From Leptotrichia sp. oral taxon 223 (lineage in GTDB: Bacteria; Fusobacteriota; Fusobacteriia; Fusobacteriales; Leptotrichiaceae): a DNA stretch of 64,000 bases. The notes below the pieces were generated by a model. It was not told where the DNA came from, did no database searches, and was given only the letters and a program-made list of their open reading frames with translations. Below, piece by piece: positions 28,025-30,690 of the stretch; position 1 is the first letter of the stretch, and each line of letters starts with the position of its first letter. Made by a program: the position numbers and the translations under genes. The stretch spans positions 1,054,001 to 1,118,000 of the forward strand of contig NZ_JABXYU010000001.1 of NCBI RefSeq assembly GCF_013394795.1. The letters are read 5' to 3'.

Positions 28025-28873
28025 TTATTTAGAAAAATCCGTTATCAGCATTTCCACTTCAATTTTATCTTCAAGCTCAGTATCCATAATGTATCCCCAT
28101 AGCATATTTGTTTGGTCTGCTCCAAATTTTTCATTTATAATCATAGTTACTTCCTGTAAATCCGTTAATCCAATGTCTGGTCCTGCTGTAATGCTTAACA
28201 GTATCTTTCTCGCTTTTTGAAGATTTTTTATAAAAGGGCTGTTTATTATTTGTTCTGTAGCAAGTTTTACCTTATCCTGTCCTTTACCTTTACCAAATGC
28301 TATTATGCCTTCCCCTGAATTTCCTAGCATTATTTTTACATCATCAAAATCAAGATTCACTACCCCTTGTTTTTTTATTAGATTTGTTATAAATTCTACG
28401 TTTTTTATAAAAATTTCATCTCTTTTTTTAAATAATTTATCAAAAGTTACACTAGAATCTGCTTCCACTAATTTTTTAAGAGGCAAAACTATAACAGTAT
28501 CAGAAACTTCTTCTAATTTCTTGATTTCCTCATTTTCTCCATTTGAATTAATTGATGTAGCAACTACAATCACTGTCAATATTCCCATTGTTTTTGCAAC
28601 TTCTGAAACAACATAGGCTATCTCATTATTCTTCTTTTCCGACATTTCCGTCAAAATAAATACTAAATCAGTATTTTTCAATGCATCCTGCACTTTCTCT
28701 CTTAAATCCTCAGAAACCAATATTTTTGATTCTACATTCAATTTATCCAAATTCTCCTGATTTGTATCAATTCCCACAAATTCAACTTCTGCAATCTCTT
28801 TTTCCACCATTTTATTCAAGACACCATTTCCCACCGTACCAATTCCGACAACTTTTATTCCGATACCGTCCAT
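28025..28873 (-). CDS. Divergent FtsZ-like protein A (degenerate GTP-binding signature)
   Basis: The 282-residue protein aligns across the FtsZ globular domain: IKVVGIGTVGNGVLNKM at the N-terminus, then EVEFVGIDT. However, the tubulin/FtsZ signature GGGTGTG is replaced by EMSEKKNNE (residues 76-84) and the T3-loop glycines are absent. The T7 loop survives as GVVNLDFDDVK (N173, D175, D178), and LLSITAGPDIGLTDLQEV follows as in FtsZ. GTP binding is therefore doubtful while the inter-subunit catalytic loop persists. There is no C-terminal FtsA/ZipA-binding peptide. AAAGGAG is 7 nt upstream. It may modify division, for example by binding FtsZ, but this is inference. The true ftsZ is not in the window. 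Confidence 0.8.
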   Translation of the reverse strand: MDGIGIKVVGIGTVGNGVLNKMVEKEIAEVEFVGIDTNQENLDKLNVESKILVSEDLREKVQDALKNTDLVFILTEMSEKKNNEIAYVVSEVAKTMGILTVIVVATSINSNGENEEIKKLEEVSDTVIVLPLKKLVEADSSVTFDKLFKKRDEIFIKNVEFITNLIKKQGVVNLDFDDVKIMLGNSGEGIIAFGKGKGQDKVKLATEQIINSPFIKNLQKARKILLSITAGPDIGLTDLQEVTMIINEKFGADQTNMLWGYIMDTELEDKIEVEMLITDFSK

Positions 28874-28945: not shown

Positions 28946-29458
28946 CTATTTTTCATACAATTTTGCCTTTTTTTCCAATAATAAAAAATCAATCGTATGC
29001 TTTATATAATCCATTGACATATTATTTATTTTTTGATTGTATAATTTTATTGCTGTTTTTTTAATTTTTTCTTTATTAGCATAAATAAATCTTAATTCCT
29101 TTAAAATTAATTTTTTGTAGCCTTCATCTGATTCCTTGTGAACATCATAATATTTAATTACCGTTTTATCAAAAATTGGAATCATATTACTTATTTTTAT
29201 AGTTCCCAGTAAAATATTTCTTTGTTTATCGGTAATTCTAATAATAAAATTATTTGACTTTCGTATTTTTCCATTATTATAATCTCTTTTTTTATTTGGA
29301 GATGATAACGGTGCTAAATAATCACAATTATTCACTCTTAAAAGCACTCCAATATATTTTCGTGTTTTCGTATAATTATCTCCTGAATAATTTAAAACTC
29401 TACCTTCAAAAAGTTTCAAATAATTTATATAGCTTTCATCTACTTCATATAACCTCAT
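28946..29458 (-). CDS. toxN: Type III toxin-antitoxin endoribonuclease, ToxN/AbiQ family
   Basis: The start ATG 29458 has GAGGGGG 5-7 nt upstream and gives 170 residues; an upstream in-frame ATG lies inside the terminator. Features of the ToxN/AbiQ fold are MRLYEVDESYINYL, KYIGVLL, APLSSP (residues 49-54, with S53 at the position of a known key serine) and SNMIPIFD. ToxN cleaves RNA and is held inactive by ToxI RNA repeats, which are found just upstream with the expected terminator between. Such systems act against phages. Confidence 0.9.
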   Translation of the reverse strand: MRLYEVDESYINYLKLFEGRVLNYSGDNYTKTRKYIGVLLRVNNCDYLAPLSSPNKKRDYNNGKIRKSNNFIIRITDKQRNILLGTIKISNMIPIFDKTVIKYYDVHKESDEGYKKLILKELRFIYANKEKIKKTAIKLYNQKINNMSMDYIKHTIDFLLLEKKAKLYEK

Positions 29459-29470
29459 AAATTCCCCCTC

Positions 29471-29499
29471 GAAAAAAAGCCACCATAATTGGTAGCTTT
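29471..29499 (-). terminator. Terminator between ToxI and toxN
   Basis: On the minus strand AAAGCTACC / GGTGGCTTT (9 bp, one G-U pair, 6-nt loop) is followed by TTTTTTT. This is the standard attenuator placed between antitoxin array and toxin in type III systems; limited read-through sets toxin expression. Confidence 0.8.
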
Positions 29500-29505
29500 G
29501 CATTT

Positions 29506-29622
29506 AAAGTTGCTTCATTTTAAGGTAGTGCAACACCTGTTTTTATCTGTCCTTCATTTTAGGGTAGCGGAACACCCGTTTTTATCTGTCCTTCATTTTA
29601 AGGTAGTGGAACACCTGTTTTT
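29506..29622 (-). ncRNA. toxI: ToxI antitoxin RNA: three 39-nt repeats
   Basis: Three tandem units lie at 29584-29622, 29545-29583 and 29506-29544, read on the minus strand as AAAAACAGGTGTTCCACTAC and so on. Units 1 and 2 differ at four positions (AGGTGTTCCACTACC against GGGTGTTCCGCTACC). Unit 3 diverges at its 3' end. Units fold as pseudoknots and bind ToxN in known systems. Repeat lengths of 35-36 nt are described for ToxI and AntiQ, so 39 is slightly longer. ToxN is expected to cut between units. Confidence 0.85.
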
Positions 29623-29641
29623 AAATTTTTCTTTCAATATA

Positions 29642-29669
29642 ATTATATCATATTTAGTTAATTAGTCAA
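29642..29669 (-). promoter_or_regulatory. Promoter of the toxI-toxN locus
   Basis: TTGACT at 29669-29664 and TATAAT at 29647-29642 are separated by 16 bp on the minus strand. Transcription should start near 29635, about 13 nt before the first repeat. Confidence 0.75.
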
Positions 29670-29712: not shown

Positions 29713-30690
29713 TTAATCGCAAAAATCTGTTGCAATCAAATATACTTTTACACAGCTTCCTTTTTGCTCAAAATCTTCAAAATTTTCAAATTTAGATTCT
29801 TCAAAGACTGTTCCCCATGCGAGAAATAAGTCTGGATTTTCTGAACTTTTGGCTACTGCTGTGGCGATTTGGCTGATTTCTTCGAGGCGTATGTCTTTTC
29901 CTGAGGTTATGTTCATTAGTATTTTTCCAGCGCCTTTTATTGAGTGTTCCAGAAGCGGTGTATTCAGTGCCTGTTCTACTGCCTTTTTTGCTCTGTCCTC
30001 TCCATCTGTTTTTCCAAATCCTAGTACTGTTTTGCCTGAATTTCGTAGTATAGATTTAATGTCTGCAAAGTCCAAATTTACAATTCCTTGTTTCTTTATT
30101 AAATCCAATATCCCTTTTACAATTATTACAAAGGATTTTTCCCCTTTTTCATAGATATTTGCCATTGGAATGTCTGGGTATAAATCATTTAATTTTTGAT
30201 ATGGAATGACTATTACAGTATCAGCAAAATGTTTTAATCTTCGCTTTCCTTTCTTAGCAAGCTTTATTTTATTAGGAGCCTCAAATTTAAAGGGCTTTGA
30301 TACAACTGCAACTGTTAATATATCCATTGATTTTGCAATTTCTGCGATAATAGATGAGGCGAATGTGCCGGTTCTTTCACCCATTTCAGCCATAATAAAT
30401 GCCATGTCTGCCTTTTCCAGCTCTTTTTTGACTTGCATCTTTAACCCTTCTACGGCTTCATAAGAAATTATTGAAGATACAAATATTTTTGTATCAGCTT
30501 TTGAATTGTTTAAATTGATTCTTTCGGTATCCACGGCTATAAAATCAGCTCTTATATCCTTTCCTACTACCATTTTATTTATCACATTGCTCCCTGTTTT
30601 CCCTATCCCTATAATTTTTATTTTTACTCCATTTAATGTTTTTTTACTGATATTCCTTTTTTCTTCAACATCTTCGGCAATGTCCCACAT
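29713..30690 (-). CDS. Divergent FtsZ-like protein B (degenerate GTP-binding signature)
   Basis: The 325-residue protein has the FtsZ layout with a 20-residue N-terminal extension: IKIIGIGKTGSNVINKM, then ADFIAVDTE. The signature at residues 102-110 reads EMGERTGTF, keeping only TGT of GGGTGTG, and no T3-loop glycines are present. Downstream FtsZ landmarks are intact: AEIAKSMDILTVAVVSKPF, the T7 loop GIVNLDFADIK (N205, D207, D210), EDRAKKAVEQALNTPLLEHSI and LMNITSGKDIRLEE. It is closer to canonical FtsZ than protein A. GGGAGG is upstream of the ATG. No C-terminal tail follows the core. Polymerisation by itself is unlikely if GTP is not bound. Confidence 0.85.
   Translation of the reverse strand: MWDIAEDVEEKRNISKKTLNGVKIKIIGIGKTGSNVINKMVVGKDIRADFIAVDTERINLNNSKADTKIFVSSIISYEAVEGLKMQVKKELEKADMAFIMAEMGERTGTFASSIIAEIAKSMDILTVAVVSKPFKFEAPNKIKLAKKGKRRLKHFADTVIVIPYQKLNDLYPDIPMANIYEKGEKSFVIIVKGILDLIKKQGIVNLDFADIKSILRNSGKTVLGFGKTDGEDRAKKAVEQALNTPLLEHSIKGAGKILMNITSGKDIRLEEISQIATAVAKSSENPDLFLAWGTVFEESKFENFEDFEQKGSCVKVYLIATDFCD

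Follow-up and report, generated by a model that had tools for sequence, protein, structure and literature searches.

The window, a 64,000-nucleotide stretch of DNA from Leptotrichia sp. oral taxon 223, contains at positions 28946-29669 of its minus strand a small toxIN-type locus that raises two questions: whether it encodes a working toxin with its RNA antitoxin, and whether it is a recent mobile arrival or an old resident of the chromosome. The favoured reading, given a probability of about 0.88, is a working type III toxin-antitoxin (TA) locus of the ToxIN/AbiQ family that has long resided on the Leptotrichia chromosome.

Organization of the toxIN locus

The locus contains a promoter, three toxI repeat units, a terminator, a ribosome binding site (RBS) and the gene toxN in canonical order. 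All four parts named in the original prediction (promoter, three repeats, terminator and ToxN) were thus located on the minus strand in the order proposed. The locus has all the elements of the published working definition of ToxIN, namely a ToxN homologue, a terminator and a repeat array (PMC5086642). The features, with the two flanking genes, are as follows.

29713..30690, minus strand: upstream FtsZ-like flanking gene, 325 aa (Pfam Tubulin 85.9 bits, FtsZ_C 71.2 bits)
29642..29669, minus strand: promoter, with -35 TTGACT (29669-29664), a 16-nt spacer and an extended -10 TGaTATAAT (TATAAT 29647-29642)
29584..29622, minus strand: toxI unit 1, AAAAACAGGUGUUCCACUACCUUAAAAUGAAGGACAGAU; stem 1 AGGU/ACCU, stem 2 UUCC/GGAC (three standard pairs)
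29545..29583, minus strand: toxI unit 2, AAAAACGGGUGUUCCGCUACCCUAAAAUGAAGGACAGAU; stem 1 closing pair changed from A-U to G-C
29506..29544, minus strand: toxI unit 3, AAAAACAGGUGUUGCACUACCUUAAAAUGAAGCAACUUU; stem 2 second pair changed from C-G to G-C
29472..29499, minus strand: intrinsic terminator in the toxI-toxN gap, AAAGCUACCA-AUUA-UGGUGGCUUU and a T-run
29464..29470, minus strand: RBS sequence GAGGGGG, before toxN
28946..29458, minus strand: toxN, encoding a 170-aa putative endoribonuclease of the ToxN/AbiQ family
28025..28873, minus strand: downstream FtsZ-like flanking gene, 282 aa (Pfam FtsZ_C 56.3 bits, Tubulin 24.1 bits)

The promoter matches 11 of 12 consensus positions. Such a match is weak evidence when taken alone, because the region is AT-rich and the number of promoter-like matches in it (9 observed vs 7.8 expected) is near chance; the promoter is kept in the orthologous loci. 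The terminator hairpin (29499-29476) with its T-run has a minimum free energy of -12.8 kcal/mol (z -5.0 vs shuffles) and is shared by the orthologues; it was absent from the output of a consensus terminator scan. The order of promoter, array, terminator and RBS is conserved at four orthologous loci. A longer open reading frame begins at 29503, and this start was dropped for the likely one at 29458, which has the RBS just ahead of it.

The toxin ToxN

ToxN gives a full-length match to the Pfam family PF13958 (ToxN_toxin; 124.8 bits, cut-off 25), a PADLOC AbiQ match of 135.7 bits and sequence matches to all four solved ToxN/AbiQ proteins (PDB 2xd0, E 6e-18), so that the comparison with ToxN families proposed as a check agrees with the original assignment. 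An NCBIfam search of ToxN yielded no match. An AlphaFold model, for which only the window and the locus proteins served as input (mean pLDDT 88.6), resembles the four solved ToxN/AbiQ structures (TM 0.75-0.84, Z 20.4-21.9), and the predicted fold is that of the ToxN/AbiQ family. The same model gave Z 12.6 with CptN and Z of about 7 with MazF-type toxins. Membership of the CptIN family was rejected: the sequence is that of a ToxN_toxin protein, the score with CptN compares with 20-22 for ToxN, and the units are of 39 nt, whereas those of CptIN are of 45 nt (PMC4627078).

The active site of Escherichia coli ToxN comprises Lys33, Thr52, Ser53 and Lys55, and Gln117 is among the residues that hold the RNA; toxicity is abolished by K33A, T52V, K55A and Q117A (PMC8860590), and the K55A protein is termed enzymatically dead (PMC9391042). 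The APLSSP motif and the S53-like serine reported earlier are both present in the alignment to solved ToxN. The residues aligned with Lys33, Thr52, Ser53, Lys55 and Gln117 are Arg, Ser, Ser, Asn and Glu, respectively. Arginine at position 33 is known from natural E. coli clusters (PMC8860590), and glutamate in place of Gln117 is common to the relatives on Fusobacterium phage phiFN37 and in F. vincentii. Lys56 and Lys57 come directly after the asparagine at position 55, and a slight alignment shift could bring a lysine back to this position. The paralogue at 1346 kb of contig C1 in the same genome (G000:C1:1346 kb, G000 being the genome that contains the window locus) has SSPSQTDY at the corresponding stretch, without any lysine. 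Because of the residues at positions 33, 52, 55 and 117, ToxN activity is considered likely, not certain. The toxN gene, with a dN/dS of 0.10-0.33 across five species (0.32-0.66 for the adjacent FtsZ-like gene), is under purifying selection.

The toxI repeats

The toxI array consists, as first described, of three 39-nt copies; they are direct, exactly spaced and 87-90% identical to the reference copy (TRF score 194). Because this spacing is kept three times and like arrays are found ahead of toxN in other species, the repeat is judged not to be due to chance. That the unit is slightly longer than those of ToxI and AntiQ had been noted; the characterised units are of 34-36 nt (PMC5086642), a small difference. 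The deviant 3' end ascribed to the third copy was also recovered: in the RNA sense, stem 2 of unit 3 is altered on both strands, being lengthened to GUUGC/GCAAC with five pairs, and the tail differs.

In each unit the 5' strand of stem 2 sits within the loop of stem 1, and the units therefore fit an H-type pseudoknot. Covariation was used to assess this structure, because nested-pair folding of single units gives z values near 0 and neither supports nor refutes a pseudoknot. Compensatory changes in both stems occur between the units of the window array, and the relatives agree. Ten distinct units, all of them from intact loci, entered the count: 95% of cells paired, two pairs had changed on both strands, and neither 500 shuffles (mean 0.110) nor any of the slid versions (at most 0.103) attained the covariation score of 0.233, which provides the pseudoknot potential that the original prediction had proposed as a check. 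The 38-nt units of the paralogue at 1346 kb were excluded from this count on account of MAFFT misalignment. Last units with the changed stem 2 include those of Fusobacterium and its phage, and the double change may have arisen once, long ago, and have been passed on to every last unit. An Rfam search gave no family at the gathering score; the best match, Phe_leader (22 bits vs gathering 55), is due to the hairpin of the terminator.

Successive units are separated by UAAAAAC, and unit 3 is followed by UUUAAAUGC. These linkers fit the A-rich sites at which ToxN is known to cut, AA^AU, GAA^AU and AAA^AA (PMC8860590), from which we infer the exact cut position.

Chromosomal site and its history

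The genes near the locus are chromosomal housekeeping genes. Both flanking FtsZ-like genes lie outside the TA system and are the neighbours at the orthologous loci as well. The GTPase domain of the 282-aa protein is barely recognisable (Tubulin cut-off 33 bits). At least four FtsZ-like matches are present in most Leptotrichia genomes, in which full-length FtsZ is located elsewhere. The nearest named genomes are those of Leptotrichia oral taxon 879 F0557 and L. hongkongensis JMUB5056.

Orthologues with the same flanking genes were identified in four other Leptotrichia species (G002, G006, G008 and G011), and the site is occupied or carries remnants in 11 of 13 Leptotrichia genomes, six of them with remnants. 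G003, G005, G009 and G012 have lost toxN and retain one repeat with the terminator; the junction lies in the T-run and leads into about 13 codons from the end of toxN. In G010 the start of toxN is fused by deletion to the end of the following gene, and in G004 two repeats are left, with about 4.5 kb of other sequence in place of toxN. No trace of the locus was found between the flanking genes of G001, and G007 is without the flanking FtsZ-like genes. Insertion into an empty site, which had been expected from the comparison with G003 and G009, was discarded in favour of loss that leaves remnants. On the FtsZ tree, several forks of which are weak, the genomes with a single repeat occupy about three positions. 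Because three of the four single-repeat junctions are identical, repeated deletion and between-species exchange of the site are equally likely. Two of these genomes, G005 (L082) and G009 (L066), retain promoter and terminator with the one repeat and have no toxin gene; their single repeats are possible orphan antitoxin RNAs, or remnants.

All five intact loci retain pairing in both stems, whereas four of the six remnants have one stem disrupted (stem 1 in G003; stem 2 in G009, G010 and G012). This pattern would be expected if the pseudoknot is preserved only as long as a toxin accompanies it (one-tailed Fisher 0.045, from small numbers). The loss of the toxin in six sister genomes suggests that its benefit is conditional. 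Together the sites provide a natural series of type III TA loss at one position, comprising intact ToxIN, single repeats that lack a toxin, and a broken fusion.

Alternative explanations

The replaced residues and the remnants could be read as signs that the locus itself is in early decay, with a catalytically weakened toxN and an array left over on the way to the state of the sister species. The positions of Lys55 and Gln117, both needed in E. coli ToxN, are indeed replaced (PMC8860590), and toxin-less remnants occupy the site in six related genomes. The toxN frame is nevertheless open and its dN/dS low across the five species, the units of intact loci all keep both stems, and the substitutions are shared with the phage and F. 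vincentii relatives, so they do not represent recent damage. Such decay is regarded as improbable.

Still less credence, indeed very little, is given to a recently acquired module of plasmid or phage origin that mainly serves its own maintenance. In its favour, plasmids commonly carry ToxN genes (161 records), and phiFN37 encodes a ToxN with 62% identity; against this, the site between the two FtsZ-like genes is the same in the 11 of 13 genomes, remnants included, and the surroundings are chromosomal. On the basis of this synteny we rejected an origin from a plasmid or a recent mobile element, and the earlier suggestion of a plasmid-derived module was not supported. The occurrence of the same site in four other species and of six remnants argues instead that the working locus of the favoured reading is a long-resident chromosomal one that has often been lost. 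It is a genuine, ordinary ToxIN locus of the kind that specialists would expect, ToxN having been recorded as common in Fusobacteriota and primarily in Firmicutes and Fusobacteria (PMC5086642).

Other ToxN loci in the genome and genus

Three further ToxN loci are present in the same genome; the antitoxins of its four ToxN loci differ, and the genome is thus suited to cross-talk tests. The array of one of them, L004 (G000:C4:56415-56927), and that of the window (29506-29622) have very similar pseudoknot cores, and the ToxN proteins of these two loci might therefore be cross-inhibited.

Another, L001 (G000:C4:165896-166387, minus strand), encodes a ToxN paralogue with about 33% identity to the window ToxN, and its antitoxin consists of tandem units of about 56-62 nt. 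Relatives of this type occur in G006, G009, G010, G011 and G026, and the loci L009, L010, L011, L012 and L030 belong to it as well. Their units covary as an H-type pseudoknot with an extra third hairpin: 92% of cells are paired, six pairs are altered on both strands, and a covariation score of 0.335 compares with 0.224 after shuffling and no more than 0.164 after sliding. This type deserves its own study, because its units exceed those of characterised ToxI (34-36 nt) and CptI (45 nt) (PMC5086642, PMC4627078). At about 1271-1272 kb of G008:C1 (L025/L029), a long-unit-type toxN contains several stops, with promoter and repeats present; this is a second case of toxin loss in which the antitoxin array is left.

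Proposed mechanism

By analogy with characterised relatives, ToxN is likely an endoribonuclease that is restrained by its RNA antitoxin and freed on phage infection. The single promoter would transcribe the three-unit array, and the terminator would end most transcripts, leaving a minority to read through into toxN, so that antitoxin is made in excess of toxin. Each unit would fold into an H-type pseudoknot, and ToxN would cleave the array into 39-nt units at the A-rich linkers, the probable sites being UAA^AA in the linkers that join units and UAA^AU in the one that follows unit 3. ToxN would then be kept inactive inside a closed ToxN-ToxI ring. Antitoxin excess through the terminator, cutting into units and trapping in the ring are all known from characterised ToxIN systems (PMC5772629, PMC8860590, PMC5086642). 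ToxI has a half-life of 3-4 min in E. coli (PMC5772629), and loss of transcription would free ToxN because the RNA is so short-lived. If the toxI supply stopped, for example through phage shut-off of host transcription, the antitoxin would be lost, and the freed ToxN would cleave RNA and halt growth and phage production. Phage-triggered release of this kind, via transcription shut-off, is reported for E. coli ToxIN (Guegler and Laub 2021, cited in PMC9391042). Within the ToxIN/AbiQ family, only some members are known to confer abortive infection.

Comparison with known systems

The ToxIN systems of Pectobacterium atrosepticum and E. coli (PDB 2xd0, 7d8o) share with the window locus the operon order, the terminator between array and toxin, the ToxN fold (model Z 21.8-21.9), pseudoknotted units and A-rich linkers. 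Their units are of 36 nt, whereas those described here are of 39 nt; the locus also differs in its chromosomal site, its three units and the Arg, Ser, Asn and Glu that replace their residues at the four positions named above. Stem 2 appears to be paired 2 nt nearer the 5' strand of stem 1 than in enterobacterial ToxI, and loop 2 is longer. Relative to the ToxI of Klebsiella and Vibrio and to the published E. coli numbering, the 5' strand of stem 2 lies 2 nt upstream and the 3' strand further downstream, which would explain the longer unit. The shift is variation within the ToxIN family. It is improbable that the 39-nt Fusobacteriota clade is a ToxIN sub-type with a pseudoknot register of its own, marked by the 2-nt shift of stem 2 and the longer loop 2, and with an active site that works without Lys55 and Gln117, accompanied by orphan antitoxins in G005 and G009; if so, these RNAs would counter incoming ToxIN, such as that of phiFN37.

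The AntiQ-AbiQ system of Lactococcus lactis (PDB 4glk) belongs to the same family, as the PADLOC AbiQ match and the model comparison (Z 20.4) indicate. Its array of 2.8 units (PMC5086642) is similar to the three units found here; it is plasmid-borne with units of 35 nt, and AbiQ is 31% identical to the window ToxN.

The nearest relatives found outside the Leptotrichiaceae are those of Fusobacterium, one of them on a phage. ToxIN of phiFN37 (L033) and of F. vincentii SB055 (L034) have the same unit type, a ToxN about 62% identical and a last unit in which stem 2 is likewise altered on both strands, with two units against three here. The phiFN37 locus adjoins head and neck structural genes in the phage genome. 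Viral contigs searched by protein gave no ToxN relative, and the search by unit pattern gave one, the IMG/VR contig L078, with a phiFN37-like locus of the same unit type. A 38-bp candidate structured RNA upstream of ToxN, HMP2_14852, apparently from Leptotrichia, has been proposed as ToxI (Fremin and Bhatt 2021, PMC8040213); it is probably of the same unit type.
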